From contig NZ_BMZB01000008.1 of NCBI RefSeq assembly GCF_014652575.1, positions 1-64,000 on the forward strand: a stretch of DNA of 64,000 nt. Direction: 5' to 3'. Below the pieces are notes generated by a model. It worked only from the letters and a program-made list of their open reading frames with translations, made no database searches and was not told where the DNA came from. The DNA is from Asticcacaulis endophyticus. GTDB lineage: Bacteria > Pseudomonadota > Alphaproteobacteria > Caulobacterales > Caulobacteraceae. This document shows positions 13,082 through 30,497 of this stretch, one piece after another. A program made the position numbers and the translations under genes. Each line of letters begins with the position of its first letter. The first letter of the stretch is position 1.

Positions 13082-13095
13082 TGATATCGATATCA
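13082..13095. promoter_or_regulatory. LacI-type operator, copy 1
   Basis: A perfect 14-bp palindrome TGATATCGATATCA between the divergent MFS operon and the beta-lactamase-fusion gene. Eight more copies or near-copies lie upstream of other glycan-utilisation genes. The central CG step and symmetric halves fit LacI-family operators. Confidence 0.8.
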
Positions 13096-13189
13096 AAATT
13101 AGGCGGGGCTGTACAGGCTAAATATCGACAGAAGTGCCGGGTTCTGAAGTTTTGAGATCATACATAATAATAAGCGGCGAGGATGGAAA

Positions 13190-15079
13190 ATGATGTGGAC
13201 ACGGCGAGGTGCGATGAGCGCAATGGGCGCGGGGGCGGCAATGCCACAACGCGTCTGGGCCGCAATCGGGCAACCGGATTTTTCATATCTTGATCAGCGG
13301 CTTCGGCAGCGCGTCGATGCCGGGTACTTTCCGGGCATAGGGTTGCGCATTGGCCGTGGAGAGCAAATCATTCACGAAGCCTATTTCGGTGACGGCGCGC
13401 CCGATCAGATCGTCCATGTTGCGTCGGCCGGAAAATGGGTGGCGGTCGCCGTGATGGCCGCTCTGGTGGATTCGGGGGCGTTGCGGTGGACAGATACTGC
13501 CCGCACCTTTATTCCCGAACTGTCGGATGTGAAAGGTGAGGCCAGTCTGGCTCAACTCTTGTCCCACACGGCGGGCTATCCTGACTATCAACCTCCCGAT
13601 GCGCGGCGTGACGATTATCAGACTCTGGAGGAGGCCGTTCGTCAGATGGCATCGCTTCCGTCGGTCGCTCGTCCGGGCGCGCGGTTCCAGTACGGCGGTT
13701 TAGCCATGCAGGTGGCAGGGCGAATGGCTGAGCTGGCGACCGGGAAGACGTTCAATGAGTTATTTCTCGAACATATAGCCGCACCACTCGAAATGTCACG
13801 GTCAGGGTTTTCGCCCGTATCAGTGGAGCCGGGATTTAACCCCATGTTGGGGGGCGGGTTTTTCACCTCCACGCCGGACTATGGACGTTTTCTGGCCATG
13901 CTGTCTCAACGGGGGCGGTATAAGGGACGGCAGGTACTTAACGCAGCCGCCATCAATGTCATGCAAGCCGACCACGTCAAACAGGCGCGCATTGTGAAAG
14001 ACGACTTTGTTGCGCCAGCCAGAAGTGTTCCGCGTCAGGATATATACGGGCTGGGGCAATGGCGGGAAGAGGTGACACCGAACGGGGAACCGCGCCTGCT
14101 GTCGTCTCCCGGCTGGGCCGGAGCCTATGGCTGGATCGACCGGCAAGAGGGGGTGTGGGGCGCCGTAATCGCCAAGGCCAATGTCGATGTGGCGACAGCC
14201 GACGGGTACAGCACCTTTTTAGGGGCAACCCTATATGCCCCTATGGTGCGGGACGCATTGCGCGATGCAGTTGACACGGCCACGAAACGCGGTGTGGTCA
14301 ATGTGCCCGGGGCACACCTTTATTATGAAGAGCGCGGGCGAGGGGCGCCTGTGATCCTCATTCATGGGCATAGTCTCGACCGGCGAATGTGGGACGATCA
14401 GTTTAAGGTTTTAGCCCGTCGCTACCGGGTTATTCGCTACGATTTGCGCGGATATGGCCGCTCATCCCTGCCGGATGAAGGTGTGCAATTTCTTCATGCT
14501 GACGATCTGCGGGCTCTCATGGATCACTTAGGCATTGCCCGCACCCGTCTGATCGGTTTGTCGCTCGGCGGGTTTATTGCCACCGATTTTCTGGCGCTTA
14601 ATCCGGAACGCGTGGTTAAGGCGGTCATGGCCGGTGGTGATCTGTTTGATGTGCCGGGCCCGGATGAACCCTGGACCTCTGAAGGCATCGCAAGGCGGCG
14701 GTCTGAGATTGCCCAACTGCGCAGAGACGGGCAATGGGCGTTTAAGCGGCGCTGGTATGACGGGCTGGTGGAAAACGCCGGTGCGGGGCGAGACCTTATC
14801 CGCCGCCCGTTATGGACTATGATCGACGAATGGCAGATGTGGCAGCCCCTTCATGTGGAACCGCGTCTGGTCTTGGGCCGTTCGGTCAGGCAGCGCCTCA
14901 GAGACATCAAACCACAAGCGCCCGTGCTGATCGTGAGGGGAGATCGTGAAACGGCAGGGTTTGCCATTACCGATCTGCTGATTGATTGCCAGATCAAAAT
15001 CATCGAAAATTGCGGACACCTGTCCAATATGGATCAGCCTGAGCGCTTCAACGCCGCCGTATTGTCATTTCTGGAATGA
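13190..15079 (+). CDS. Fusion of class C beta-lactamase-like serine hydrolase and alpha/beta hydrolase
   Basis: A 629-residue two-domain exported enzyme. The start MMWTRRGAMSAMG has a twin-Arg leader character and follows GGCGAGGATGG. Residues 30-355 are a beta-lactamase/esterase (PBP-like) domain: SxxK at Ser79-Lys82 (VASAGK), LLSHTAGY at 123-130 and Tyr168 in FQYGG. Residues 370-629 are an alpha/beta hydrolase: HGHS oxyanion loop at 392-395, nucleophile Ser458 in GLSLGG, probable acid Asp585, and His610 in CGHLS. Both domains keep plausible catalytic residues. The tandem suggests ester or amide cleavage of a decorated glycan; the real substrate is unknown. Confidence 0.85.
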   Translation: MMWTRRGAMSAMGAGAAMPQRVWAAIGQPDFSYLDQRLRQRVDAGYFPGIGLRIGRGEQIIHEAYFGDGAPDQIVHVASAGKWVAVAVMAALVDSGALRWTDTARTFIPELSDVKGEASLAQLLSHTAGYPDYQPPDARRDDYQTLEEAVRQMASLPSVARPGARFQYGGLAMQVAGRMAELATGKTFNELFLEHIAAPLEMSRSGFSPVSVEPGFNPMLGGGFFTSTPDYGRFLAMLSQRGRYKGRQVLNAAAINVMQADHVKQARIVKDDFVAPARSVPRQDIYGLGQWREEVTPNGEPRLLSSPGWAGAYGWIDRQEGVWGAVIAKANVDVATADGYSTFLGATLYAPMVRDALRDAVDTATKRGVVNVPGAHLYYEERGRGAPVILIHGHSLDRRMWDDQFKVLARRYRVIRYDLRGYGRSSLPDEGVQFLHADDLRALMDHLGIARTRLIGLSLGGFIATDFLALNPERVVKAVMAGGDLFDVPGPDEPWTSEGIARRRSEIAQLRRDGQWAFKRRWYDGLVENAGAGRDLIRRPLWTMIDEWQMWQPLHVEPRLVLGRSVRQRLRDIKPQAPVLIVRGDRETAGFAITDLLIDCQIKIIENCGHLSNMDQPERFNAAVLSFLE

Positions 15080-15095
15080 ATTGAAGACCGTCGAT

Positions 15096-16550
15096 TTATT
15101 TCGAGATTTCAAATCCCTCAACGTGCGGGCCGATCTTGATATCCCCATCCGTCGGGTTTCGGACCTTGCGTCCGCCGATCGTGAGGTTTTCGATGCGGAC
15201 GCCTTTGACGGCGGTATCGACCGACAGGCCGGAAATGATTGACGCGCTCGGCATACCCTCACCGGTGAAGGTGATATTGCGCAAGGTGACATTTTCCACG
15301 CCGCGTCCCGGCGCTTTGTTATAGCGGGGGCTGTTGCCAGCGACGATATGGATCAGCTTGCCCTCCTCGATACGCTCGACCCTAATGTTGGAAAAGGAGA
15401 TGTCGCGGATGAGGGTGGAATCGCCGGAGAAAATAGCCATAGCCCCTTCCCAGGGCCCGTCATCTTCGTCGAGGTTGAGCACGTCGATATTGTCGAAAGT
15501 GACATTGTGTATGGTGCGCGGGTTTGCATTGTCGCCGAAATGGCCAACATACATAGCGTGGGCAACGTCATTCCAGAACGTCGAGTTCGTCACCTTGATA
15601 TCATAGGTGTCAAAGGATTCTGATGACGGGGCTGTATCGGTCTTGGTCGCACAGATGGGGCAGTCATTAACCGCATAGACGACCACGGCATCGTCTGAGG
15701 TTCTCAGATAGGCCCGATCAACCGCAACATGCTGGGACGTTGAAATGCCGAAACCATCCGACCATTTCCCGGACGTAAAGCCCGTCAGTCCATTGACCTT
15801 CACATTGACGGAGTGCCGAATATTGGAGATGCGCGCGGCAGCTTCTTTGTCATCATTGACGACAATCACATCCTCAATCGTGATGTTTTGGGAGCCATCA
15901 ATCTCAATAGCACGCCCGGAGTTGTAAATCAGGCCGCGTCCCATAATGCGGACATCCTGAACGCCCCTGAGATCAAAATTACCATTCAGGATAGCGCCGC
16001 CCTCGAGATAGATAGTCTCACCGGAGCGCGGACGAAATATTTTCCCGCCATCATCAGGGGCGTGGACGCCCGGCCCATAATAGCTGACATTTTCGCCAGC
16101 GGGTTTTGGCGGCGGCGGTGCGCCCGCCAGAATGTGCAGATTGTGCAGGCGGTCATCGTCGAATTGCAGCGAAAAGCGCTGTGGCCGGTCTAGCGTAAAG
16201 CTGATGATCTTGCCTTTTGTGGTCAGTTTTACGCCGGGCGCACGCGGTAAAACATCAACAGTCTGAAAGCGCCCGTTGTTTTTCTGCACCTCAACTTCGA
16301 CGGTGCCGGTGAAGTCAAAATAGACCATCGACGCGTCCTGGGGTTCGTCCCAATCTACGCGGATATTGTATTCATAAAGATCCTGCCACTCGCCGCCGGG
16401 GGTTCGGACACGCACCGTGTAGGTGTCATTGTGGGCGGCATAGACCATGGGAACCGGCGGCGCTGGGTATGCCCGTAAACTGTCGGCATATGCGTATGGT
16501 GCGGCCACCATAAGGCTAAGGCAGATGACTGAGGCAAAATTCAGTTTCAT
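15096..16550 (-). CDS. Secreted right-handed beta-helix glycosidase (polygalacturonase-like)
   Basis: A 484-residue exported protein with a clear signal peptide (MKLNFASVICLSLMVAAPYA, cut after YADS region). Residues 25-145 look like a beta-sandwich (GTVEVEVQKNNG), then YYGPGVHAPDDGG and a long parallel beta-helix with repeats such as SQNITIEDVIVVN. TSDDAVVVYAV carries the paired Asp expected of GH28/GH49-type glycosidases. The sandwich-plus-helix layout resembles GH49, but GH28 is the more usual label. A paralogue is encoded at 36682-38493. It lies 17 bp downstream of the unknown 795-residue gene and shares its operon; start set by a GGGAG site. Confidence 0.75.
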   Translation of the reverse strand: MKLNFASVICLSLMVAAPYAYADSLRAYPAPPVPMVYAAHNDTYTVRVRTPGGEWQDLYEYNIRVDWDEPQDASMVYFDFTGTVEVEVQKNNGRFQTVDVLPRAPGVKLTTKGKIISFTLDRPQRFSLQFDDDRLHNLHILAGAPPPPKPAGENVSYYGPGVHAPDDGGKIFRPRSGETIYLEGGAILNGNFDLRGVQDVRIMGRGLIYNSGRAIEIDGSQNITIEDVIVVNDDKEAAARISNIRHSVNVKVNGLTGFTSGKWSDGFGISTSQHVAVDRAYLRTSDDAVVVYAVNDCPICATKTDTAPSSESFDTYDIKVTNSTFWNDVAHAMYVGHFGDNANPRTIHNVTFDNIDVLNLDEDDGPWEGAMAIFSGDSTLIRDISFSNIRVERIEEGKLIHIVAGNSPRYNKAPGRGVENVTLRNITFTGEGMPSASIISGLSVDTAVKGVRIENLTIGGRKVRNPTDGDIKIGPHVEGFEISK

Positions 16551-16567
16551 CTTTAGACTCCCGAAGC

Positions 16568-18955
16568 TCAGTTCTTACCAAGGTAAATAACGGCGGTTGT
16601 GCCGGGTAATACGGTCAGCGAAGTTCTGTCGGTGGTCACGATGGTGCCGGAGACAAGGTCTTTAACGGGGGCCGTGCGTGCGGGCAGTTTAAGCTCAAAG
16701 CTTTTTTGCGCCGATGCATTGATCGCGACCAGATAAGGCCCGTAGGTCAATTGGTAGTAGTCCGCGCGTCCGGCATAGGGATTGTCTTCGCCCGGTACAT
16801 ATTTTGAACCGTCAGGCAGTTTGGCGACCGGATCTTTTTCACCGGCGGTCCAGACATCCCCATCGTCAGGATATTTAACCGTAAAGCGCGTGCCATTGAT
16901 GTGGGGATTGTTGGGACGGGTATAGAAGAGACCGCTGGGTTCATATTCCTGCCGGTCCAGAACGACGGTGGCCAGCCGGTCGGTTTGCGGGGTGATGTAA
17001 TGCACACGACCGACACCGCTGATGCCATAATTGGCGCGCCAGTACAGTGAGGCATAAAAGATGTCGTCGCCATGTTTCACGGCCACAACGCCATTCTCTT
17101 CGTCGGTAAAGACGAAATCAGGCTCTCCCTTCGACATGGGCAGCTTAAAGGGTTGCGCGGGCAGAGCGGAGAGGGTTTCAAATTCCTCCACGACATCTAT
17201 CAGCCCGATCGTGGCGCGCAGCGTCCTGGCCGTCATCATATGGTCTACGCTGGAGAAAAACTGGTTTTCGGCGATCTGCTGCTGAGCATAGGATATCAGC
17301 AGGGGATCTTGTGTCGCCACGGCCACCTGAAGCGGGGAGGATTCCCACGACGGTTTTTGCCCGTACATGACATCACCGGGGTAATACATGTCGCGCCAGC
17401 CGATGCCGGTTTCCAGTCGCATGGACTTATAGCCCTTCGCATCAGCATGGGGGACGCGGAAATATCCGCGCGCCTGTGCGATTTTCACCAGTTGATCGCG
17501 AATCTTGACATCGCCCGGTTGGCCTTTGGCGGGCCGTGTCGCGTCATAAAGGGCGGCAACCCAATCAAGGACTTCGCCGTATCCGCCGACATAGCCTAGC
17601 TCTTTGGTCAGCCCCTTAGCGGTGGTTTCAAAATAGTTTTTGGGCACGGAAAACTTCGCATCAGCCTCAGAGGCGGCATAGGTGGGTTCACCCTCATCAT
17701 TCAGGCTGCCGGTCCATGGTATCAGGCCGACAGATTCGTAAAAGAACGGCAATAGTTTCGCGCGCGCTTCGGCCTTTGGGCTGCCTATGGCGATCAGGCC
17801 CTCGTTAGTGTTCCAGATGCCATAGAGGTCCTTGATCATGGACTGGTTGGTGTAGAGCCTGCGGTTCTTTTTGTTCCATTCCCGGCTGTAGACGAACATG
17901 GCTTCATAGGCCTTGCGGCGGCTTATGGTTTTGCCGTCAGGCCCGGTGATTAAGACGTCCAGATCCTTTTGGATGAAGGGGCCGGTTATTTTTAGCGCTT
18001 CGCCCAGAAGCCCCAGACCAAACCAGCCGGGATTGGGCGTATTCACGTCATTGATAGCTATGTCGGAATTGGTTTTGAACTGATCATAATAGGTGTCCGC
18101 ACCTTTCAGAATGGCAGTCAGGTGATCGCGGTCATGGTAACCCGTCGTCCATTTCGTCTCAAAGGTTCGGGCCAGAAATGAGATTTCCATTTGATGAGGG
18201 GCGCGCCCCTGAAGCGACAGGGTTTTGGAGATCTGATCGTTAATGCGCGATCTGACCCGGTTCATCACCTCCGCGCCGTTTTCCGGATTAACGGACAATG
18301 GCATGGGTTTGCCGTCATTGCCCGCAAACTCAATCATTTTATCGGAGTGGACGATAAGCGCGTAAAGGCCGCGCGACGGCTCCGTCATGGGCTTTTGAAA
18401 CTTGGCGAGCTCAGCGCCGTAGCGCCAGATCGGGCCGGTCGCGCGCATCTGGCAGTCGATCCGTGATTTGCCCTGAGTGAGTGCTGCGGGCAGGGCATGG
18501 GTGACATAGTGAAAATGCCCCGGCTTTATTTTGCCGTGGGTGCCCTGATCGAGGATATCAATGTCACTGAGCTGGCGATAACCGACCTGTTTGCCATCGC
18601 AATACAGGGTCGTGCGGTTGGTCGAAATATCTGAGCCCCACAGGCGAACGGTCAGGTAATTTTGCTCATTGCCTTTGACCTTAAGGTGAAACGAGGCTGT
18701 GCCGCCGCGCCATTCATCAGTGTTCGCAGGCCCGGCTTTTAGCGGCAGAAGACGCCGCGCAGACTGGCCTAAACCGCCCGCAATGATGTCACTGGTGTCA
18801 GCCGTCAGACCGTGGGCGGCCTCGGATTTCATGTCGCCAAAGACCAGTATGTCGGTGTGGTCTGCGGCCAGAACCGGCAGGGGGGACGCGCCCAGCAACA
18901 AGGTAACGGCTAAGCCTGCGCGGGTCTTTCGCGCCAGTGTGTTTGAAACGGGCAT
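16568..18955 (-). CDS. Large exported protein of unknown family, probable helical-toroid glycan enzyme
   Basis: A 795-residue exported protein I cannot assign. A signal peptide runs through RAGLAVTLLLGASPLPVLA. Residues 25-150 resemble a carbohydrate-binding jelly roll (NYLTVRLWGSDIS). The middle is rich in helices with aromatic/acidic turns (WTTGYHDRDHLTAI, PNPGWFGLGLLGEALKI, GYVGGYGEVLDWVAALYD), as in (alpha/alpha)-toroid lyases and hydrolases. The last 90 residues look like a beta-sandwich. The ATG at 18955 follows GGAGAGG by 9 bases and is preferred to 18973. It is the first gene of an operon with the beta-helix glycosidase, and an operator lies 47 bp upstream. A lyase or glycosidase is likely, but unproven. 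Confidence 0.7.
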   Translation of the reverse strand: MPVSNTLARKTRAGLAVTLLLGASPLPVLAADHTDILVFGDMKSEAAHGLTADTSDIIAGGLGQSARRLLPLKAGPANTDEWRGGTASFHLKVKGNEQNYLTVRLWGSDISTNRTTLYCDGKQVGYRQLSDIDILDQGTHGKIKPGHFHYVTHALPAALTQGKSRIDCQMRATGPIWRYGAELAKFQKPMTEPSRGLYALIVHSDKMIEFAGNDGKPMPLSVNPENGAEVMNRVRSRINDQISKTLSLQGRAPHQMEISFLARTFETKWTTGYHDRDHLTAILKGADTYYDQFKTNSDIAINDVNTPNPGWFGLGLLGEALKITGPFIQKDLDVLITGPDGKTISRRKAYEAMFVYSREWNKKNRRLYTNQSMIKDLYGIWNTNEGLIAIGSPKAEARAKLLPFFYESVGLIPWTGSLNDEGEPTYAASEADAKFSVPKNYFETTAKGLTKELGYVGGYGEVLDWVAALYDATRPAKGQPGDVKIRDQLVKIAQARGYFRVPHADAKGYKSMRLETGIGWRDMYYPGDVMYGQKPSWESSPLQVAVATQDPLLISYAQQQIAENQFFSSVDHMMTARTLRATIGLIDVVEEFETLSALPAQPFKLPMSKGEPDFVFTDEENGVVAVKHGDDIFYASLYWRANYGISGVGRVHYITPQTDRLATVVLDRQEYEPSGLFYTRPNNPHINGTRFTVKYPDDGDVWTAGEKDPVAKLPDGSKYVPGEDNPYAGRADYYQLTYGPYLVAINASAQKSFELKLPARTAPVKDLVSGTIVTTDRTSLTVLPGTTAVIYLGKN

Positions 18956-19001
18956 CTTTTGTTTCCTCTCCATTTACCCCGATGAGGCATGGATGATTTT
19001 C

Positions 19002-19015
19002 TGATATCGATATCA
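19002..19015. promoter_or_regulatory. LacI-type operator, copy 2
   Basis: Perfect TGATATCGATATCA, 47 bp upstream of the 795-residue unknown gene on the minus strand. It shares the divergent intergenic region with copies 3 and 4. Confidence 0.8.
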
Positions 19016-19092
19016 TAATTGAGGCGGAAATGGCGGGTTGTCAAGCCGGTATATTGGCGCGAAGGGGGCGGTGGTGCCTGTAAATTTTTTAT

Positions 19093-19106
19093 TGATATCG
19101 ATAACA
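19093..19106. promoter_or_regulatory. LacI-type operator, copy 3 (one mismatch)
   Basis: TGATATCGATAACA in the 400-bp divergent control region between the minus-strand and plus-strand glycan operons. It is 91 bp from copy 2 and 203 bp from copy 4; multiple sites of this kind allow repression by DNA looping. Confidence 0.65.
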
Positions 19107-19295
19107 AATTGATGTAGCTATGCACATGTCAGGATTTGTTTTTTGCCTGACCATAGCCACTTTGACTATGTTTGCGTGTTTCCGGTGGAATCGCCCTCTA
19201 TTTCTGCCGGCGCCTTTGGATTCCCTCCATAGGCATCCTTCCCTACGACCTTTCAGCGGCCGCGACACATTTGTGTTCCGGTCGCTTTTTTTATT

Positions 19296-19309
19296 TGATA
19301 TCGATATCA
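19296..19309. promoter_or_regulatory. LacI-type operator, copy 4
   Basis: Perfect TGATATCGATATCA, about 50 bp upstream of the GTG start of the SUMF1-GH43-GH97-GH43 operon. Its distance to copy 2 is 294 bp, close to a whole number of helical turns. Confidence 0.8.
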
Positions 19310-19358
19310 TTATGTGTAGTCTGGCGGGATAAAAAGAATAATCAGAGGAAATGCTGCC

Positions 19359-20135
19359 GTGGGTATCAACATGATGGCCATTTGCGCCCGCCTTTCAGGG
19401 GTGGGCGTATCAGTTGCGGGTCTATGCCTTGCGGGGTCTGTGCTCGCGTCGGCGGATGATTTGCCGCACATGGTGCTTGTGCCGGGCGGGGCGTTTGATA
19501 TGGGCTCCAAACCCGCAGAACCGGGCCGGGAGGGCGATGAAGCGCCGCGCCACCGCGTAGTCCTGAAACCCTTTTATGTGTCTCAGCATGAGGTCACCGA
19601 GTCTCAGTGGAACGCCTGCGTGTCGGCGCAAGCGTGCAAGCCTTTGCGGCAGTCATCGGGCCCGCAATATCCGGCATGGGATTTACGCTGGAAGGAAGCC
19701 GAGGCCTATGTAGGGTGGTTGTCTGAAACGACCGGTCTGAAATACCGCTTTCTGACCGAGGCCGAGTGGGAATATGCGGCGCGCGCGGGAACGGATACAC
19801 TTTACCACACGGGCGATACTATCTCACCCGCGCAGGCCAACTATGCGGCGTCGGGTCTGGGGCGGGTCGGGCCGGTCGGGCAATATAAGCCCAATCACTT
19901 CGGGCTTTATGATATGCACGGTAATGTCTGGGAGTGGGTGGCCGACTGTTATCGCGAGTCAGGTTACTATCAGGCCCCGGCGGATGGCCGAGCGGTAGCT
20001 GATCCGGACTGTCACATGCATGTTTTGCGCGGTGGTGCGTTCGATACGCGGCCGGAGCAACTGAGAAGTGCTTATCGGTTCCGCGCTCAATTTGGTGGTC
20101 CCGGTGTGGGCTTGCGCGTCGCACGGGAGCCGTAA
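19359..20135 (+). CDS. Exported SUMF1/formylglycine-enzyme-fold protein
   Basis: A 258-residue protein with a signal peptide (VSVAGLCLAGSVLASADD) and a complete FGE-sulfatase-type fold: MVLVPGGAFDMGSKPAEPG, FYVSQHEVTESQWNACV, YRFLTEAEWEYAARAG, GLYDMHGNVWEWVADCY and LRGGAFDTRPEQLRSAYRFR. The pair of cysteines that binds copper near the C-terminus of true formylglycine-generating enzymes is not present in the final block, and no sulfatase is encoded nearby, so it is probably not a sulfatase activator. GTG start with AGAGG about 10 bases upstream; ATG at 19371 is an alternative. First gene of a four-gene operon. Confidence 0.8.
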   Translation: MGINMMAICARLSGVGVSVAGLCLAGSVLASADDLPHMVLVPGGAFDMGSKPAEPGREGDEAPRHRVVLKPFYVSQHEVTESQWNACVSAQACKPLRQSSGPQYPAWDLRWKEAEAYVGWLSETTGLKYRFLTEAEWEYAARAGTDTLYHTGDTISPAQANYAASGLGRVGPVGQYKPNHFGLYDMHGNVWEWVADCYRESGYYQAPADGRAVADPDCHMHVLRGGAFDTRPEQLRSAYRFRAQFGGPGVGLRVAREP

Positions 20136-20136
20136 G

Positions 20137-21219
20137 ATGAGACTATTATTCCTCTCGGTATTGTGTCTGCTGCTGGCACCGGTCGCCGGGGCTGAGACCG
20201 CTATGCGTTCCGGCACCATTTCGCCGGGAGCGCTCTGGCCGGATGATAAGGGCGTGCATATCAACGCCCATGGCGGCGGCATTTTACAGCATGACGGCGT
20301 CTATTACTGGTTCGGCGAGCACAAGATCGCGGGTGATGCGGGCAACAGAGCCCATGTCGGCGTTCATGTCTACAGTTCGCGCAATCTCATCAACTGGAAG
20401 GACGAAGGCATCGCCTTGTCAGTGGTCGATGATCCGATGAGCGACATTGTGCGCGGATCGGTGATCGAGCGGCCCAAGGTGATCTATAACGCAAAGACCC
20501 GAAAGTTCGTGATGTGGTTCCATCTGGAGCTTAAGGGGCTGGGCTATAAGTCTGCGCGTTCGGCCGTTGCGGTCGCCGATACCGTCACCGGGCCATACCA
20601 CTATGTTAACTCGTTTCGCCCCAACGCCGGTATCTGGCCGCTAAATCTGTCTGAGGCAGATAAAGATCCGGCCCGAACCGTTGTGGCGCGTGACTTTGAG
20701 ACCGGGCAAATGGCCCGCGATATGACCCTGTTTGTCGATGATGATGGTGCGGCCTATCACCTTTATGCCTCCGAAGAAAATCACACCCTTCATATCTCCC
20801 GCCTTACGGATGATTACATGCGGCCTGCCGGAGACTATGCGCGCATGCTGCCCATGGGCAATGATGAGGCCCCGGCCATATTTAAGCATAAGGGCAAATA
20901 TTATCTGATCACGTCCGGCCTGACCGGATGGGCACCGAACCCGGCCAAGTCCTATGTGGCGGATCATATATTCGGCCCGTGGACGGCGCTCGGTAATCCG
21001 GTGCGCGGCACGCTTGAGCAACAGGCCATAACCTTCGGCGGGCAATCGACCTTCGTTCTGCCCTATGGCAATGGCCATATCTTCATGGGCGATATATGGC
21101 GGCCGAAGGATGCCATTGATGGCCGTTACCTGTGGCTGCCGATTGAGTGGGACAAGGATAAACCGGTGATCCGTTGGTACGACACCTGGAATTTGAAAAC
21201 TTTGGAGACGCCGCAATGA
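20137..21219 (+). CDS. GH43 glycosidase, exo-beta-1,3-galactosidase-like
   Basis: A 360-residue secreted five-bladed beta-propeller enzyme with signal peptide MRLLFLSVLCLLLAPVAGAE. It matches the GH43 group that includes galactan 1,3-beta-galactosidases: HINAHGGGILQHDGVYYWFG near the N-terminus, IERPKVIYNAKTRKFVMWFH with Glu111, and ARDMTLFVDDDGAAYHLY with Asp195. It should remove terminal galactose (or arabinose) from side chains. The ATG lies 1 bp after the SUMF1-gene stop; the longer frame from 20068 lies within that gene. Its stop overlaps the GH97 start (ATGA). Confidence 0.85.
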   Translation: MRLLFLSVLCLLLAPVAGAETAMRSGTISPGALWPDDKGVHINAHGGGILQHDGVYYWFGEHKIAGDAGNRAHVGVHVYSSRNLINWKDEGIALSVVDDPMSDIVRGSVIERPKVIYNAKTRKFVMWFHLELKGLGYKSARSAVAVADTVTGPYHYVNSFRPNAGIWPLNLSEADKDPARTVVARDFETGQMARDMTLFVDDDGAAYHLYASEENHTLHISRLTDDYMRPAGDYARMLPMGNDEAPAIFKHKGKYYLITSGLTGWAPNPAKSYVADHIFGPWTALGNPVRGTLEQQAITFGGQSTFVLPYGNGHIFMGDIWRPKDAIDGRYLWLPIEWDKDKPVIRWYDTWNLKTLETPQ

Positions 21220-23174: not shown

Positions 23175-24928
23175 TGAAGGCTATAGTGTCCATATTGCTG
23201 GCGGGACTGTTTCTGCCGGTGGTAGCTCAGGCTGCCGAGCCGCCGCTGGTCGTGCCCGATACCCGCATGCCGTCAGGTGTGTGGATATCGGATCAGGGGG
23301 ACGGCACCTATATTAATCCGGTGCTTCAGGGCGATTATTCTGATCCCGATGTGGTGCGGGTTGAGGATGACTATTACCTGACGGCCTCCAGCTTTACCAA
23401 TGTGCCGGGGCTGCCCATTCTGCACTCCAAAGATCTGGTCAACTGGACTCTGATCGGCCACGCACTGGCGCGCAATGTGCCGGAGGCTCATCATGCCGTG
23501 CCGCGGCGCGGGGGCGGTGTCTGGGCGCCTGCCATTCGCCACCACAATGGCAAGTTTATGATCTATTATCCCGATCCGGATTTCGGGATATTTCTGGTGA
23601 CCGCCGTGGACCCAAAGGGGCCGTGGAGTGCGCCGGTTCTGGTGGATAGTACCAAGGGCGCCATTGATCCGGCCCCCTTCTGGGATACGGATGGTCAGGG
23701 CTATCTCGTGATAGGTTTTGCCGGATCGCGGGCGGGTATTAAAAACATCATTACGCTGAAAAAGCTCAATGCCGACGGCACAAAAACGGTTGATGAGGGT
23801 GTGCGCATTATCGAAGGCGATAAACTGCCCAAGGTTAAAACCTCGCAAGGGCTGATGCCGTGGTTCACCACCGAAGGCCCCAAGCTCTATAAGCGCGGCG
23901 AATGGTATTACATCTTTGCGCCGTCGGGTTCGGTCAAAGGCGGCTGGCAGGGCGTGTTCCGCTCGAAATCAATTTATGGCCCTTATGAGGGGCGAAGCGT
24001 AATCGATCAGGGCAATACCGACATGAACGGCCCGCATCAGGGCGCGTGGGTCGATACGGCCCCAAAAAATGGAAAACCGGGTGAAGACTGGTTCCTGCAT
24101 TTTCAGGACACGGATTCCTATGGCCGCCGCGTTATGCTGCAACCGATGCATTGGCAAAAGGACGGCTGGCCGATCATCGGTGAGCGTCAAAAAGGTCAGG
24201 TCTATGGTCAGCCGGTCTGGCGTCACAAGAAGCCTGCCTTGCCCTCGCAGCCAATCGCCCGCAACCCGGTGGATGATGATTTTGACAATGGCTATCACCT
24301 CGGCTGGCAATGGAGTTCTAATCCCGGCGACGACTGGGTTGACCAGTCGGTCAAAGGCGCGCTGCGCCTTAAATCCGTATCGTCACCGGTCAATCTGTGG
24401 GAAGCGGGCAATCTGCTGACCCAGAAACTGCCGGGCATGGGTTTCAGTGCGGCGACAAAGTTGACATTAACGCCCAATCTGGCCGGGGAACGTGCGGGTT
24501 TGCTGGTTCTGGGTTATGATTACGGCTGGATCGGGCTGGAAAATACCGCAGATGGTGTCAAGCTGGTGCAGGTCACACGACCGCGCGCCAATGCCGGAGG
24601 CAGCGAGACGGTTCTGACGGCACCGGTGCGTGTTGACGGGCCGGTCTGGGTGCGCGCCCGGTTTGAGCCGGTAACGGTCGCAGACCCTGTGCCGCAGTTT
24701 CCCCATTACTGGCCGTCAATGTTGCGCTCGACCCACGCCAGGGTGGCGTTCAGCTACAGTCTGGACGGGGTGAGTTTCACGCCGGTAGGGACGGGCATGA
24801 TGACGCAGCCGGGGCGATGGGTCGGCACGCAGATAGGCTTGTTTGCGCAGGCCGCGTCAGGTACACCGGCGTTTGTGGCCACCCGTGTCGGCTATGCGCA
24901 GTTCGATAATTTCAGCGTGGTGCCTTGA
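23174..24928 (+). CDS. GH43 beta-xylosidase/alpha-L-arabinofuranosidase-type enzyme
   Basis: A 584-residue secreted enzyme: signal peptide MKAIVSILLAGLFLPVVAQA, GH43 propeller at about 45-355 and a C-terminal beta-sandwich at 365-584 as in two-domain GH43 xylosidases. The catalytic triad is visible: base Asp57 (DYSDPDVV), modulator Asp165 (AIDPAPFW) and acid Glu234 (FTTEGPKLY). It probably cleaves arabinose, xylose or galactose residues from side chains released by other enzymes of the locus. It is the last gene of the operon; the next gene starts 167 bp downstream, behind two inverted repeats. Confidence 0.9.
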   Translation: MKAIVSILLAGLFLPVVAQAAEPPLVVPDTRMPSGVWISDQGDGTYINPVLQGDYSDPDVVRVEDDYYLTASSFTNVPGLPILHSKDLVNWTLIGHALARNVPEAHHAVPRRGGGVWAPAIRHHNGKFMIYYPDPDFGIFLVTAVDPKGPWSAPVLVDSTKGAIDPAPFWDTDGQGYLVIGFAGSRAGIKNIITLKKLNADGTKTVDEGVRIIEGDKLPKVKTSQGLMPWFTTEGPKLYKRGEWYYIFAPSGSVKGGWQGVFRSKSIYGPYEGRSVIDQGNTDMNGPHQGAWVDTAPKNGKPGEDWFLHFQDTDSYGRRVMLQPMHWQKDGWPIIGERQKGQVYGQPVWRHKKPALPSQPIARNPVDDDFDNGYHLGWQWSSNPGDDWVDQSVKGALRLKSVSSPVNLWEAGNLLTQKLPGMGFSAATKLTLTPNLAGERAGLLVLGYDYGWIGLENTADGVKLVQVTRPRANAGGSETVLTAPVRVDGPVWVRARFEPVTVADPVPQFPHYWPSMLRSTHARVAFSYSLDGVSFTPVGTGMMTQPGRWVGTQIGLFAQAASGTPAFVATRVGYAQFDNFSVVP

Positions 24929-24956
24929 GGCCTTATTGCGCTGCCAGAGCGTTTTC

Positions 24957-24980
24957 CCATCAAGTGGAATCACTTGATGG
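24957..24980. repeat. Perfect short palindromic hairpin
   Basis: CCATCAAGTG, 4-base spacer, CACTTGATGG: a 10-bp perfect stem. It has no T-tract, so it is a poor terminator. It resembles the intergenic palindromic (REP-like) elements common in alphaproteobacteria. Confidence 0.6.
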
Positions 24981-25006
24981 ATCAGAAAGAGCGACCACTA
25001 AAAAAT

Positions 25007-25047
25007 TAGAGCAAATTTACGATGCAATATGATCGAAATTTGCTCTA
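25007..25047. repeat. 12-bp inverted repeat upstream of the LacI gene
   Basis: TAGAGCAAATTT (25007-25018) and AAATTTGCTCTA (25036-25047) form a perfect inverted repeat with a 17-base loop, 49 bp before the LacI start codon. It differs from the TGATATCGATATCA sites. It may be part of the adjacent palindromic repeat element or a site for control of the regulator gene. Confidence 0.6.
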
Positions 25048-25095
25048 TTAAATAGCTGTTCTAATTCGCGTTATCTGAATCGCTAGGGATATAAA

Positions 25096-26148
25096 ATGAA
25101 ACGTCAGCGTATGAGCGATCAGGGCGGCACGGTAACGATTCACGATGTGGCCAGACATGCAGGTGTCTCGTCCATGACCGTGTCACGCGTCATTAATAAA
25201 AACGTCAATGTGCGTGAGCCTTTGCGTGAAAAGGTCATGGCCTCGATCAAGGCCCTGAAATACACCATGAACATGGCCGCGAGGTCGACACGCGCCGGCA
25301 TGGGCGGGGTTCGGATCGGCGTGTTATATTCTCACCCGTCGGCGTCCTATCTGAATGAGGTCATGCTGGGGGGGCTGGATCAGGCGGCGCGTCTGGGGGC
25401 GCAACTGTTGCTGGAAAAATGCGGCGGGTTGCAGTCGCAGAAAAACGCCGTCAACCGGCTGGTTGAAGCCGGGGTTGATGGGGTGATTCTGCCGCCGCCT
25501 TTGTGTGATTCCGCACCCACCGTGCAGATGCTGACCCGTGTGGGCATCCCTGTGCTGGCGTTGGCGACGGCGCGCCCCTTGCCGGAAGTCTCGGCTGTGC
25601 GTATCGACGACTTTCAGGGGGCTCTGGCCCTGACCCGACATTTGACCAAGCTGGGGCATAAGCGTATCGGGTTTATCAAAGGCAACCCGACCCACACGCC
25701 GACCGAAGTTCGTTATGAAGGCTTCCTCAAAGGGCTGTCGGAGGCGGGCATTACGCTGGACGAGGGGCTGGTGGTGCAGGGGCAGTTTACCTATAAATCC
25801 GGGCTCGAAGCCGGACGGGAGCTTCTGGATCGGAAAGACCCGCCCACCGCTATATTTGCCTCCAATGACGATATGGCTGCCGGTGTCATGGCGGTCGCGC
25901 ACGGGCTAAAGATCTCAATCCCTGAGCAACTGAGTGTATGCGGGTTTGACGATACGCCGGTCGCCTCGACCATCTGGCCGCAACTGACCACGGTTCATCA
26001 GCCGATCGTGGCTATGGGGCGCAGTTCGGTCAGTACAATTTTCGAGCGGATCAAAGAGCTGAAATCGGGCGAACCGTCTAGGCCCGTCCATCAACTGATG
26101 AAATTCACCCTGATGGATCGCGATTCAACGGGGCCTGCGCCGAAATAA
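25096..26148 (+). CDS. LacI-family transcriptional regulator
   Basis: A 350-residue DNA-binding repressor. Residues 13-60 hold the HTH and hinge (TIHDVARHAGVSSMTVSRVI), followed by a periplasmic-binding-protein-like sugar sensor with GVDGVILPPPL, KLGHKRIGFIKGNP and AIFASNDDMAAGVMA. The ATG follows AGGGAT. It sits between the SUMF1-GH43-GH97-GH43 operon and the esterase/TBDR genes, and is the only LacI protein in the window, so it is the likely reader of the nine palindromes. Its effector is probably an oligosaccharide or sugar from the locus. No palindrome of that type lies immediately before its own start. Confidence 0.92.
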   Translation: MKRQRMSDQGGTVTIHDVARHAGVSSMTVSRVINKNVNVREPLREKVMASIKALKYTMNMAARSTRAGMGGVRIGVLYSHPSASYLNEVMLGGLDQAARLGAQLLLEKCGGLQSQKNAVNRLVEAGVDGVILPPPLCDSAPTVQMLTRVGIPVLALATARPLPEVSAVRIDDFQGALALTRHLTKLGHKRIGFIKGNPTHTPTEVRYEGFLKGLSEAGITLDEGLVVQGQFTYKSGLEAGRELLDRKDPPTAIFASNDDMAAGVMAVAHGLKISIPEQLSVCGFDDTPVASTIWPQLTTVHQPIVAMGRSSVSTIFERIKELKSGEPSRPVHQLMKFTLMDRDSTGPAPK

Positions 26149-26185
26149 TATCTGACGGCGCAGAGGATAAGTTTTCCGCCTTAAT

Positions 26186-26199
26186 TGATATCGATATCT
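26186..26199. promoter_or_regulatory. LacI-type operator, copy 5 (one mismatch)
   Basis: TGATATCGATATCT, 52 bp upstream of the esterase start and 37 bp after the LacI stop codon; placed to overlap or block the esterase promoter. Confidence 0.7.
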
Positions 26200-26251
26200 T
26201 TTGGTCTCGCCGGATTTTAGGGGGCAGGCATCACGCTATAAAGAGGAAATT

Positions 26252-27091
26252 ATGCCGCAGGAACTGCCTTTTGACGAAAAATCGGCGTCTCCCGATGAGG
26301 TGTTTGTTCTTTCGGAAGGGACTCCCAATACGCTTGAGGGAATGTGGCCGGATCGACGGTACTACGTCATCAACCGTTTGGAACTGCATCTATATCGGGC
26401 GGCGTCAAAGCCACGGGCGCGGGCGCTGATTTATCCGGGGGGAGGCTATCTCGATCTGGTTCACGATAAGGAAGGGATAGAGATTGCCCTGTGGTTATCG
26501 GGTATCGGGATCGATGCCTATGTGGTGGTTCATCGGTTGCCGGGGGCGCTAAAAGCCGGTACGGGCGAGGTCTGGTCATCCGATATTGCGCTGAACGACG
26601 GTCTTTTGTGTCTGGATTTTCTGCACGCGCGCGATGATTTGCCGCTTTTGCATTTTGGGTTGTCGTCCGGCGGCCATCTGGCGGGCGTCATGGCCTGTCA
26701 GGCGCATCCTCTGGCGGCGGCAGGCGTCATGATCGGCTATGCGCCGGTCAATGCCAATCACCGTCGCTACAAGGCCCCGGCGGATAAGCCCGATTATCCG
26801 CCGGTTGAGAAACAGGACTTTTATGACGCCTGGCCCATCGGTATGGCGCAGGAACCGCACGGCGTGCCCAAAGTCCCGGTGTTTTTGGTTTATGCGCTTC
26901 ACGATCAGCCAGTGCCGGTCGATCATGCGCTTAACTTCATCAAGGCCATGCAGCAACATGGCGGCGATCTGGAGGCGCATATTTTCCCACAGGCGCCGCA
27001 CGGATTCGCTCTGCGTGACCTCGCCGGAACGCACGATCAATGGCCGCTTCTGGCGTCGCGCTGGATCGACCGGGTTTTGACAGCGCTGTAA
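26252..27091 (+). CDS. Alpha/beta hydrolase, acetyl-esterase-like
   Basis: A 279-residue alpha/beta hydrolase without a signal peptide. The oxyanion segment IYPGGGYLDLVHDKEG is followed by nucleophile Ser in FGLSSGGHLAGVMA, the probable acid Asp in ALHDQPVPVDH and His in APHGFALRD. The pattern fits xylan- and pectin-type acetylesterases (BD-FAE/AxeA group). It would deacetylate imported oligosaccharides in the cytoplasm. The ATG at 26252 follows an AAGAGGAAA site; the longer frame from 26201 lacks one. A LacI-type operator lies 52 bp upstream. Confidence 0.85.
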   Translation: MPQELPFDEKSASPDEVFVLSEGTPNTLEGMWPDRRYYVINRLELHLYRAASKPRARALIYPGGGYLDLVHDKEGIEIALWLSGIGIDAYVVVHRLPGALKAGTGEVWSSDIALNDGLLCLDFLHARDDLPLLHFGLSSGGHLAGVMACQAHPLAAAGVMIGYAPVNANHRRYKAPADKPDYPPVEKQDFYDAWPIGMAQEPHGVPKVPVFLVYALHDQPVPVDHALNFIKAMQQHGGDLEAHIFPQAPHGFALRDLAGTHDQWPLLASRWIDRVLTAL

Positions 27092-27192
27092 TTCGACAGT
27101 TGTGTCAAAATCTGTGGCATAAAGGCGTCAGTTAGCTGTATCCAACTGAATATATATTGACGCATTTGTCATGCAAGCGTAAGGTTTATTTG

Positions 27193-27206
27193 TGGTATCG
27201 ATATCA
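27193..27206. promoter_or_regulatory. LacI-type operator, copy 6 (one mismatch)
   Basis: TGGTATCGATATCA, the outer of two sites upstream of the first TBDR gene, with centres 30 bp from copy 7. Confidence 0.65.
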
Positions 27207-27222
27207 AATTGATGCTGCTTTC

Positions 27223-27236
27223 TGATAACGATATCA
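27223..27236. promoter_or_regulatory. LacI-type operator, copy 7 (one mismatch)
   Basis: TGATAACGATATCA, 95 bp upstream of the first TBDR start codon. A TATAAT sequence follows at 27292-27297, but no good matching -35 box is visible. Confidence 0.7.
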
Positions 27237-27331
27237 AATTAGGGTTGGCGGCAAAGTTGTCGGGCGCTGCATAGGGATATGTACAGGCCAATATAATGAC
27301 GACATGCACGTTAAGCGCCGGAGGAAACAAA

Positions 27332-30265
27332 ATGAAAAGATACACACGGATGCGCGCGTGCGTGTCGGGGGCAGCTATGCTGTTTGCCATGAGCGTGACT
27401 GCTGCGGCTAACGCACAGGAGACGGCATCTGCGGAAGATGTCGATACAACCACGGTGGTGGTCACCGGTATTCGCGCCTCGGCGCGCTCCTCGCTTTCGA
27501 TCAAGAAGAATACGCTTGAGGTCGTTGATTCCATTACGGCCGAAGATATCGGCAAATTGCCTGACACCAATGTGTCGGAAACCCTGACGCGCATTCCCGG
27601 TGTTCAGGGCTACCGGTACGGCGGTGAAGGGGCGTCCCCTGCGGGCTCAGGCTCCGGGGTCACTATTCGCGGCCTGTCGGGGCAGACAGCCTCTCAGCTC
27701 AATAGCCGGGTATTTTTCACCGCCGGGACGCGTGAGTTCAACGTCGAAAGCGCTATTCCGGGCATGGTTGCGGGCATCGATGTTTATAAGAACCCGTCGG
27801 CGGAGCATATCGAAGGCGGTATTGGTGGCCTTGTAAATATCCGCACACGTAACCCCAGTGATTTTAAGGGGCCAACCGTGTCTTTGGGGGCTACGGCGCG
27901 CTATAATGACCTGATCAAAAAGGCTGATCCTGAAATTTTCGGTCTGGTTGCCAACCGTTGGGATCTGGCCAATGGTGGCCGCATCGGCGTGATGGCGGCG
28001 GGGACTTTTAGCGAAAGCAGTGGGCGTTCTGATAATAATCCGGCCAATGGCGGGGCAAACTTCAAGCGCGCGATCCGTGCGGATGATGCTGAATATGCCG
28101 TTGCGGCGGGCGCTAATCAGGCCTATGCCGGGCGAACGGATACGTGGTTTCTGGCCAGTGTGCCGAGCACGGCCAATGTCCCGAATGCCAATCTGACATC
28201 CTTTACAGGCGCGCCCCTGACCAGTGCGCAGCAGGACAATATTATGGTCGCGCCTGCGCTGACCAATAACCTGTTCCAGGAAAGCATTTTCCGTACCCGC
28301 AAAGGGTTGAGCCTTGCCAGTGACTACCGGGTAAATGACAGTCTGCGCTTTTATGCCGAGTATAATTATAACTACTATCTGTACCATCAAAACTATCGCG
28401 GCCTGAATGCCGTTGACGGCGGTACAGTTCAAAATCTGACGACGACGCCGTTCGACTATACCGAAGGGCTGGCCAACCGTAACAGCAATGGCGGCTCAGA
28501 TGACGTGGTCGTCGATCAGCGACTGGCAGGGGCGACCTTCCTCAATTCGACCCTGAATACAGTCGGTGGCGATGAGCATCACGAATACGATACGGCCTCT
28601 CTGGCCGGGGGTGTGGAATGGAAGCCGACGTCCCAGTTGGAGTTCAAAGCCGACCTGATGTATCTTGAAACCACGCGCTCTCAGGATAATCGCTCAGTCA
28701 ATATGGACTCGGCGCCGGGTCTCGTCTGGAATATTGAGCGCACCACCACGGGTGAGCCGCATACCTTTGATATCTCCGGCCCAAGACTGGATGATGCGGC
28801 CAACTGGATTTTCCGCGACTATAATAATGGTGCCAACCAGAAGTGGGACGATAGTGCCTGGGCGGCGGCCTTTTCCGGCAAATATATGCCCGAAGCCGGA
28901 CCGTTCTCCGCCGTCAAGTTCGGCGTTCGCTTTGCGCATCAGCAGGATGATTACCGCACCTACAATTTTTCCGGCCGACGCCTGACAACCGATGGTGGTT
29001 TGCGCACGAGCGCCAACATGATTTTCGGGTCGTCAATGGCGGATCTTCTGGTCAATGCGCCCCGCAACTTCATGCGCGATGAGACGGGCTATTCCGGCGG
29101 GTTCCTGGTGTTCGATTCCGACGCCCTGTTAGGCGATAATGTCCGCAACCGTTTCCCAAATGCCGGGATTGCGGCAGAGGCCTCATTACCTGAAGTAACC
29201 GCGAACCGTCGCTATAGCGAAGAAGACACCACCGCCGCCTTCCTTATGGGTGAGTTTACCTTCCTTGACGACCGGCTTAAGGGCAATGTCGGTGTACGCT
29301 GGGTGAAGACGGAGGGCTTCTTCCGCTCCGGTGCCGGGGCTTCTGCCATTGAGGCGTCGTCTTCCTATAAGAACACCCTGCCGTCGTTGAACGTGACCTA
29401 TGATCTGACGGGCGACAATGATCTGTTGCTGCGATTTGGCTATGGCCGGGGCCTGACCCGTCCTGATCTGGGTCAGCTTAACCCGACCCTGTCCTATAGC
29501 GAATCCTTGGGGACGGGCAGTGCTGGCAATCCCGACCTGAAGCCGCAGGTGGCCGACAGTTATGACCTGTCGCTGGAAAAATACTTCTCCAGCACCAACT
29601 ATGTGTCCGCAGCCGTATTCCGTAAGGAAATCGACAGCTTCTTCTTTGGTATCGCCGGCTGTGAAACCATAGCCGGGGCACCGGCACCCAGTGGTGTTGT
29701 GACGCCAACAGGGTGTGCCTCGCCGCAATATCTGGTGACGCGCACGGTCAATGCCGAGCCGGGCTGGGTCGAAGGGGTGGAACTATCGGGGCAATATTTC
29801 TTTGATGCTCTGCCGGGTATCTGGAGCCATTTCGGCGTTTCCGGGTCTTACACCTTCGTCGATACCGCCTTGCCGGTGAACTTCGGTACGGCCACGGCAC
29901 CACGTTTTGTCATCATGCCTCAGCCGATGCAGTCAAAGCATAATTACAGCCTGACCGGCATGTATGAGGATGAGAAATTCTCGGCCCGTCTGGTCTATAC
30001 CTACCGTTCGGATGCCATTCTGTTTGGAGCGTCGATCAACCCGATCGATGGCCGCTATATCCGTGAGTATGGGATTCTCGATCTGGCGCTCAACTATAAT
30101 CTGACAGAGCGGGTGGCGGTGAGCTTTAATGCCATGAACCTGACCGATCAGGCGCTTAACCGGAATGTGGGTGAGCCCTTCGGTTATGAAACCAACATTG
30201 AGCGTCAGCATTTTGCCAATGGTCGCAACTTCTCGCTGGGGGTGCGCTATAAGTTCGGCGGGTAG
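27332..30265 (+). CDS. TonB-dependent outer-membrane receptor (glycan uptake)
   Basis: A 977-residue TBDR. Signal peptide in CVSGAAMLFAMSVTAAANAQ, TonB box TTVVVTGIRAS, plug domain with SITAEDIGKLPDTNVSETL and VTIRGLSG, then a long 22-strand-type barrel ending FSLGVRYKFGG. This is the proteobacterial TBDR group often linked to carbohydrates. The ATG at 27332 follows GGAGGAAACAAA; the frame from 27296 lacks a ribosome site. It is downstream of two LacI-type operators and followed by a terminator, so it is likely transcribed alone. Ligand is presumably the target oligosaccharide. Confidence 0.92.
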   Translation: MKRYTRMRACVSGAAMLFAMSVTAAANAQETASAEDVDTTTVVVTGIRASARSSLSIKKNTLEVVDSITAEDIGKLPDTNVSETLTRIPGVQGYRYGGEGASPAGSGSGVTIRGLSGQTASQLNSRVFFTAGTREFNVESAIPGMVAGIDVYKNPSAEHIEGGIGGLVNIRTRNPSDFKGPTVSLGATARYNDLIKKADPEIFGLVANRWDLANGGRIGVMAAGTFSESSGRSDNNPANGGANFKRAIRADDAEYAVAAGANQAYAGRTDTWFLASVPSTANVPNANLTSFTGAPLTSAQQDNIMVAPALTNNLFQESIFRTRKGLSLASDYRVNDSLRFYAEYNYNYYLYHQNYRGLNAVDGGTVQNLTTTPFDYTEGLANRNSNGGSDDVVVDQRLAGATFLNSTLNTVGGDEHHEYDTASLAGGVEWKPTSQLEFKADLMYLETTRSQDNRSVNMDSAPGLVWNIERTTTGEPHTFDISGPRLDDAANWIFRDYNNGANQKWDDSAWAAAFSGKYMPEAGPFSAVKFGVRFAHQQDDYRTYNFSGRRLTTDGGLRTSANMIFGSSMADLLVNAPRNFMRDETGYSGGFLVFDSDALLGDNVRNRFPNAGIAAEASLPEVTANRRYSEEDTTAAFLMGEFTFLDDRLKGNVGVRWVKTEGFFRSGAGASAIEASSSYKNTLPSLNVTYDLTGDNDLLLRFGYGRGLTRPDLGQLNPTLSYSESLGTGSAGNPDLKPQVADSYDLSLEKYFSSTNYVSAAVFRKEIDSFFFGIAGCETIAGAPAPSGVVTPTGCASPQYLVTRTVNAEPGWVEGVELSGQYFFDALPGIWSHFGVSGSYTFVDTALPVNFGTATAPRFVIMPQPMQSKHNYSLTGMYEDEKFSARLVYTYRSDAILFGASINPIDGRYIREYGILDLALNYNLTERVAVSFNAMNLTDQALNRNVGEPFGYETNIERQHFANGRNFSLGVRYKFGG

Positions 30266-30296
30266 TATCTAAAGGTTTTAGTCGATTGAGAGCAGG

Positions 30297-30327
30297 GGCT
30301 GCGGCATCATATGTCGCAGCCTTTTTT
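30297..30327 (+). terminator. Rho-independent terminator of the first TBDR gene
   Basis: GGCTGCGGCA pairs with TGTCGCAGCC (one G-U pair) around a short loop, followed directly by six T residues. It lies 31 bp after the TBDR stop codon. Confidence 0.85.
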
Positions 30328-30440
30328 ATTTAATGATTTCAGTTGATTGGCTTGGTTCTGCCCTCCTGTGGTAATTTGGAAACGGTGGGCGGCGTTGTGA
30401 TTGTGCGGGCGGGTTTGGCTTGACAGATTAGAAAATTTTC

Positions 30441-30454
30441 TGATAACGATATCA
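30441..30454. promoter_or_regulatory. LacI-type operator, copy 8 (one mismatch)
   Basis: TGATAACGATATCA upstream of the second TBDR gene; identical to copy 7. Its centre is 43 bp, about four helical turns, from copy 9. Confidence 0.75.
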
Positions 30455-30483
30455 GAATATCGCAGTCCCTTTGCGCCATTTTT

Positions 30484-30497
30484 TGTTATCGATAACT
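30484..30497. promoter_or_regulatory. LacI-type operator, copy 9 (divergent variant)
   Basis: TGTTATCGATAACT; its inner 12 bp, GTTATCGATAAC, are a perfect palindrome with the same central ATCGAT as the other copies. It lies 77 bp upstream of the second TBDR start. Confidence 0.6.

Follow-up and report, generated by a model that had tools for sequence, protein, structure and literature searches.

What controls the genes of a putative polysaccharide-utilization locus in Asticcacaulis endophyticus? The locus lies in the first 64,000 nucleotides of contig NZ_BMZB01000008.1 (assembly GCF_014652575.1), the stretch that we call the window, where a first-pass annotation had paired a single LacI-family gene, at 25096, with nine matching palindromes. 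Our analysis indicates that this LacI protein is very probably a local repressor, acting through the word TGATATCGATATCA on a polysaccharide-utilization locus of seven units. Several lines of sequence comparison support the pairing of the protein with the sites, among them their co-occurrence in 149 genomes, the retention of sites in rearranged clusters, and a paralogue that has another recognition residue and another motif.

Predicted operators and their probable regulator

The nine palindromes are found where the annotation had placed them and, as it had stated, three of them are perfect. All nine lie in non-coding DNA between genes, with start codons assigned from ribosome-binding sites. 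Their word TGATATCGATATCA is an even palindrome with a central CG, a feature typical of LacI/GalR-family operators, though not universal among them.

13082..13095: operator 1, perfect, between the divergent MFS and esterase-fusion genes; homologous sites stand before the MFS gene in G068, G141, G029 and G099
19002..19015: operator 2, perfect, upstream of the gene for an 801-residue lyase-like protein; in contact with the −10 of a promoter match, TTGACA-18-AATTAT
19093..19106: operator 3, one mismatch, in the intergenic region shared with operator 2
19296..19309: operator 4, perfect, upstream of the FGE-GH43-GH97-GH43 run
26186..26199: operator 5, one mismatch, between lacI and the esterase gene
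27193..27206: operator 6, one mismatch, upstream of the gene for the first TonB-dependent receptor (TBDR1)
27223..27236: operator 7, one mismatch, upstream of TBDR1
30441..30454: operator 8, one mismatch, upstream of the second receptor gene (TBDR2); starts 21 base pairs (bp) past the start of a TTGACA at 30420
30484..30497: operator 9, TGTTATCGATAACT, three mismatches, upstream of TBDR2; kept in four of the five Asticcacaulis aligned and missing in G029

The palindromes exist as described, and chance does not account for them. With three mismatches allowed, TGATATCGATATCA occurs at 15 places in the window, against 1.94 expected (100 shuffles, largest 5), and at up to one mismatch it occurs at eight, against a mean of 0.017 and a maximum of 1 for 59 palindromes with permuted half-sites. 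A scan of the whole genome (3.95 Mb, 13 contigs), which the first-pass annotation had proposed as a check, supports the regulon at one mismatch. Eight of the 11 places within one mismatch are in the window, and the other three lie inside open reading frames (ORFs) that, named by eye, are fumarylacetoacetate-hydrolase-like, ParB-like, and MgtE-like. The exact form TGNTATCGATANCA occurs at five places in the genome, all within this locus. At two mismatches, the word loses its specificity, with 53 places in the genome (the backwards pattern has 5).

The regulator gene (25096..26148, + strand) encodes the Pfam LacI helix-turn-helix (HTH) and periplasmic-binding-like domains, with scores of 58.6 bits for PF00356 (cut-off 27) and 117.8 bits for PF13377 (cut-off 26.5). 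As had been claimed, no other LacI-family gene is present in the window. It is the only LacI HTH on the contig, among eight matches in the genome, seven of which are above the Pfam cut-off. The protein is 99% identical to one from Asticcacaulis sp. UBA2476 and 98% identical to one from A. machinosus LKC15W. The DNA upstream of lacI contains, at 24961-24976, the perfect inverted repeat CAAGTGGAATCACTTG, of which the genome has two further copies; a second, AGAGCAAATTT...AAATTTGCTCT, was seen by eye at ~25009-25049.

We searched 149 genomes of the family for the LacI protein and for the 14-mer word. In 14 genomes a LacI homologue reaches 61% identity or more, and these contain 4-14 one-mismatch places each (mean 7.4), whereas the other 135 contain 0-4 (mean 0.47), with at least one in 42 of them. 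With genomes treated as independent, the co-occurrence of LacI and sites has a p value of 7e-13, and of 4e-4 within the genus (5 versus 18 genomes). Sites are also still found before homologues of the same genes where clusters have been rearranged, in Asticcacaulis (G068, G141, G029, and G099) and in Caulobacter (G091, G082, G116, G086, and G146). In G141, for example, a 361-residue protein homologous to the esterase fusion in its beta-lactamase-like half is encoded on a separate contig behind a perfect site, and in G099 a heparinase-like gene, and an esterase gene with TBDR2, lie on two further contigs with sites present. Gene positions in these relatives are based on homology, ORF-based coding labels (35 of 99 sites labelled "coding?") being unreliable in G+C-rich DNA.

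The genome encodes a paralogous LacI (C1:1339484-1340497, locus L072) that is 48% identical to the window protein. At E. coli positions 17 and 18, the former being the first residue of the recognition helix, the paralogue and its relatives have Pro-Met, whereas the window protein, with a TVSR helix, has Ser-Met. A different word, TGNTAGCGCTANCA, is found in 20 of 21 paralogue loci; in 17 of the 21 it stands no more than 200 bp past the end of the lacI gene. In its own genome TGNTAGCGCTANCA occurs at seven places, five on C1 and none in the window. The paralogue with TGNTAGCGCTANCA resembles a second regulon.

Named loci with a LacI homologue number at least 78, and the locus counts given here refer to the matches listed. 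All 17 loci from Asticcacaulis and Caulobacter, which include two very close to the window (L074 and L075), hold sites, 70 in total at one mismatch (control mean 0.10, maximum 6). Among sphingomonad loci with the same enzymes, 6 of the 7 listed hold 15 sites; sphingomonad LacI proteins are 46-49% identical to the window protein, have Ser-Met, and are mostly accompanied by sites. The 38 Xanthomonas-group loci listed, the LacI proteins of which are 53-58% identical and all Pro-Met, hold none. For these Pro-Met homologues, GGTAACGTTACC was the top 12-mer (5 of 16 loci), but TGGTAACGTTACCA was found at one mismatch in only 2 of 38, and no motif is claimed.

Several points weigh against the pairing. 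The genomes are related, and the p values for co-occurrence thus overstate their independence; moreover, co-occurrence cannot separate LacI from a gene cluster that travels with it. No one-mismatch site is present in two Ser-Met loci (from Rhizomicrobium and an alphaproteobacterial bin), in the sphingomonad cluster locus L134, or in five distant Ser-Met loci (L124, L142, L143, L150, and L151), and one of 13 other loci, L141, does carry such a site. Finally, a one-mismatch TGATATCGATATCA site is found in 3 of 19 paralogue loci, the own-genome case being inside an ORF, and the core GATATCGATATC is found in 5 of 21, each time inside a long ORF. A few sites in relatives have no tie to cluster genes: that of G115 is in an ORF, two on G029 C3 are in ORFs, and those of G080 and G141 C6 are in no long ORF and have no cluster gene near.

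Genes of the locus and the likely substrate

Together in this locus are TonB-dependent receptors, an inner-membrane sugar transporter, glycan enzymes, and a regulator, the combination by which TonB-receptor carbohydrate-utilization loci are recognized.

9497..10501, − strand: ROK-family sugar kinase
10429..11649, − strand: GH88 unsaturated glucuronyl hydrolase (Pfam; PDB 2zzr, E 3e-113)
11646..12968, − strand: LacY-type MFS oligosaccharide symporter (start codon chosen; mechanical ORF to 13025)
13190..15079, + strand: beta-lactamase-like/alpha-beta-hydrolase fusion (esterase)
15096..16550, − strand: GH28-family protein (Pfam; no PDB relative at E 0.01)
16568..18955, − strand: 801-residue protein, possibly a lyase (mechanical ORF to 18973)
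19359..20135, + strand: FGE-sulfatase-domain protein
20068..21219, + strand: GH43, exo-beta-1,3-galactanase-like (PDB 6eug, E 7e-110; 7bys, E 5e-55)
21174..23174, + strand: GH97, alpha-galactosidase-like (PDB 5e1q, E 5e-72)
23174..24928, + strand: GH43 with beta-xylosidase C-terminal domain
26252..27091, + strand: esterase-like protein (Pfam Peptidase_S9/DLH; mechanical ORF from 26201); pectin- and xylan-acetylesterase models score below their cut-offs
27332..30265, + strand: TBDR1, TonB-dependent receptor (mechanical ORF from 27296)
30575..33460, + strand: TBDR2, TonB-dependent receptor (Pfam Plug domain; mechanical ORF from 30518)
33563..35959, + strand: heparinase II/III-like lyase
35975..36637, + strand: 2OG-Fe(II) oxygenase-like protein

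The 801-residue protein matches no Pfam (E up to 1) or NCBIfam family and no solved structure by sequence. Its predicted fold has a mean predicted local distance difference test score (pLDDT) of 64, and matches to lyases and to CBM35 are weak and partial. Asticcacaulis, Caulobacter, and a Sphingobium conserve it alongside the cluster, at 41-98% identity, and it is possibly a member of an undescribed lyase family. The FGE-sulfatase-domain gene heads the GH43/GH97 run, and no sulfatase family was matched among the 20 proteins scanned around the locus. Beyond the oxygenase-like gene, a GH28-like ORF (36682-38124) can be aligned to A. machinosus, at 86% identity, only from ~37605 down; the first part of the ORF has no match there. 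In A. machinosus and G141 a site precedes the GH28-like gene (L054:8656 and L056:16031), whereas in the window there is none. The comparison points to a rearrangement in which the 5′ end of the ORF, and the operator with it, were replaced.

Which glycan would these genes serve? The annotation had spoken of a large glycan regulon; the regulon is supported by our analysis, and we infer a narrower identity for the glycan, as the evidence tips somewhat towards a type II arabinogalactan-like substrate. A system for degrading type II arabinogalactan would combine an exo-beta-1,3-galactanase with enzymes that process glucuronate; by sequence match, the locus has candidates in a galactanase-like GH43, a GH88 protein, and a heparinase-like lyase. 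For the first GH43 protein, the best match is 6eug, which is listed as a beta-glucanase; galactan 1,3-beta-galactosidases, 7bys among them, follow. The GH97 protein is closest to a retaining alpha-galactosidase, and the GH88 protein to unsaturated glucuronyl hydrolases. According to the part of PMC8377490 drawn on here, lyases acting on gum arabic leave unsaturated glucuronate, which could be a substrate for GH88. It is nonetheless quite possible, if short of probable, that the same regulon serves pectin or a sulfated or alginate-like polymer: there are two GH28-like proteins (of which the second does not reach the Pfam cut-off), an esterase that weakly resembles pectin acetylesterases, a heparinase/alginate-lyase-like protein, and an FGE domain. 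However, the galactanase-like GH43, the alpha-galactosidase-like GH97, and the GH88 protein would suit a uronate-bearing galactan.

Mode of action and alternative readers of the sites

From these sequences we infer a model that covers binding, repression, transcription units, inducer, and substrate. A LacI dimer would bind TGATATCGATATCA before seven transcription units: (1) MFS-GH88-ROK, (2) the esterase fusion, (3) the lyase-like gene with GH28, (4) FGE-GH43-GH97-GH43, (5) the esterase gene after lacI, (6) TBDR1, and (7) TBDR2-heparinase-like-2OG. At several promoters, bound LacI would block RNA polymerase by covering the −10 or start region. The inducer would be a breakdown sugar, perhaps a small oligosaccharide of galactose and glucuronate derived from type II arabinogalactan; its binding to the periplasmic-binding-like domain would lead to release of the repressor. 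Because there is no operator before it, lacI itself may be expressed constitutively or by read-through.

Repression by sites that overlap the −10 or start of TTGACA-type promoters is likely, because such overlaps recur. Upstream of TBDR2, TTGAC(A/T) starts 21 bp before the operator in all five Asticcacaulis aligned, although the surrounding DNA has diverged, and a −10 at the usual spacing falls within the operator. In the region of operator 2, the best promoter match (10/12) has its −10 in contact with the operator. More widely, of 131 site sides from 21 loci, 8 have a TTGACA or TTGACG that starts 20-21 bp ahead of the site, including those of Caulobacter TBDR1 and GH97 genes. Two results weigh against this: the overall promoter scan shows no excess (10 versus 11.9 in shuffles), and −35-like hexamers are enriched at other distances too (e.g. 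9 versus 2.3 at 10-14 bp, and 9 versus 2.4 at 55-59 bp). The hexamer enrichment is thus support for steric repression, not proof.

Two further regulatory features found no support. The annotation had suggested DNA looping because the 43- and 294-bp spacings fit whole helical turns. These two do fit (4.1 and 28.0 turns), but the other adjacent spacings in the window, 91, 203, and 30 bp, are off-phase (8.67, 19.33, and 2.86 turns), and when the window is pooled with relatives, 28 distinct spacings are unphased at 10.5 bp (R = 0.19, p ~0.38; 0.17 at 10.0 bp and 0.66 at 11.0 bp). Helical phase therefore does not support looping. As for autoregulation, the region upstream of lacI has no site within three mismatches in any of the five Asticcacaulis. 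In this respect the system differs from the RegPrecise LacI regulons, of which 72% of the members studied are autoregulated, according to the section of PMC4052901 cited here. It resembles those local regulons in having a LacI-family protein beside sugar genes and CG-centred even palindromes upstream of starts.

Might the protein be an activator or a dual regulator, rather than a simple repressor? In favour, several regions contain two or three sites, some of them far from any −10 (e.g. 19093 and 27193). Such a role is nevertheless improbable: the operator covers the expected −10 at TBDR2 in 5/5 Asticcacaulis and at other promoters, and SucR, a LacI-type regulator of a Caulobacter TonB-receptor locus, is a repressor (PMC11897816). 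As a LacI-type repressor that is expressed constitutively and acts on a TonB-receptor sugar locus, SucR of Caulobacter crescentus is a precedent, but it controls a single sucrose-induced operon, sucABCD, instead of about seven units with many glycan enzymes.

The sites could also be operators of another regulator, either the paralogue at C1:1339484 or a second LacI such as that of Caulobacter. Caulobacter clusters do contain a second Ser-Met LacI with the same recognition residues, and the idea of one regulator per cluster, which holds for the window, does not extend to them. In a tree of 75 of 110 rows, this second copy groups with the sphingomonad proteins (support 100/99), and the window LacI is placed together with Rhizomicrobium and the first of the two Caulobacter copies (100/98); both Caulobacter copies may read one operator. 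For the paralogue, there are the few loci, 3 of 19, with a one-mismatch site nearby. We consider another reader decidedly unlikely, as the paralogue is Pro-Met and has its own motif in nearly all of its loci, and the five further LacI-HTH proteins of the genome that pass the Pfam cut-off differ in the residues before TVSR. An origin of the palindromes by chance or as a mobile repeat, with no regulatory role, can be dismissed almost entirely, for, common as the word is genome-wide at two mismatches, the statistics in window and genome contradict this, operators are kept while flanking DNA diverges, and sites follow homologous genes across genera.

The hinge and the recognition code

At the positions of the E. 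coli LacI hinge motif YPAL, the window protein has Y-M-A-T and thus departs from it. As described in the text of PMC3875437 drawn on here, YPAL is found in ~60% of LacI-family linkers, and is therefore typical rather than defining; 11-13 substitutions of Leu56 abolished LacI repression, and of seven tried in PurR only methionine was tolerated. Thr occupies the Leu56 position in 34 of 109 aligned LacI rows. These 34 comprise the window and, among the loci listed, all rows from Asticcacaulis, Caulobacter, Rhizomicrobium, and an alphaproteobacterial bin. In 18 of them another residue also takes the place of the hinge proline. The paralogue rows have Leu; in sphingomonads, rows that come with the cluster show either Leu or Phe. 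In Rhizomicrobium electricum (L079; 8871 and 10001), two adjacent Ser-Met LacI genes, both encoding Thr hinges, accompany cluster homologues, with no one-mismatch site. The site consensus is nearly equal beside Thr, Leu, and Phe proteins, although preselection of sites at one mismatch or fewer limits the difference that could appear. A structure model of the window LacI has the expected fold (mean pLDDT 78), but its hinge (residues 59-69) is below 50 and uninformative on Thr.

The LacI recognition code, in the portion of PMC2978694 that we cite, correlates AA-15, AA-16, and hinge residues with operator bases. NT-2 is tied there to AA-55, AA-15, and AA-5, and leucine at AA-54 (82%) goes with a central CG. 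In the present case, by comparison with that portion, Ser/Pro at AA-15 pairs with T/G at NT-2, and a central CG accompanies Thr at AA-54. The window protein and the paralogue differ at AA-15 (Ser/Pro), at AA-55 (Arg/Ala), and at NT-2 (T/G). In the Ser-Met proteins of sphingomonads, AA-55 is Lys or Ser and yet NT-2 is still T; the correlation therefore points to AA-15 as the residue tied to the NT-2 difference. Taking hinge and recognition helix together, we tentatively raise the possibility that a Thr-hinge branch of LacI replaced the DNA-intercalating leucine yet keeps canonical CG-centred sites, so that the leucine lever would be dispensable, and that Ser or Pro at LacI position 17 moves NT-2 between T and G.

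The system is a new LacI regulon of a well-known type, its oddity being the hinge Thr in place of the DNA-intercalating leucine. The Caulobacter examples in the cited part of RegPrecise (PMC4052901), GluR and BglR1-3, concern glucose and beta-glucosides, and the present regulon is not among them. The xyl-box of XylR, TGGTAGCGCTAACA, as given in the excerpt of PMC10380989 used here, is a LacI-type operator of Caulobacter and Xanthomonas that likewise spans 14 bp around a central CG, but the base next to its central C is G, not T, and it resembles the paralogue motif TGNTAGCGCTANCA rather than TGATATCGATATCA. Literature searches (titles and starts of abstracts) returned no description of the regulon, although an earlier prediction in RegPrecise or a supplement may exist, and for the 14-mer only two papers, on breast cancer and on a nematode by title.

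For the Caulobacteraceae, the locus offers a nearly complete and testable regulon, with regulator, operators, and targets, for a multi-enzyme plant-glycan system, and its operator word can be used for finding further members. It also provides a natural series of LacI proteins with varying recognition and hinge residues and visible likely operators, which makes the recognition code and the supposed need for the hinge leucine directly testable. If the Thr-hinge reading is true, the hinge leucine would be dispensable for reading CG-centred sites.

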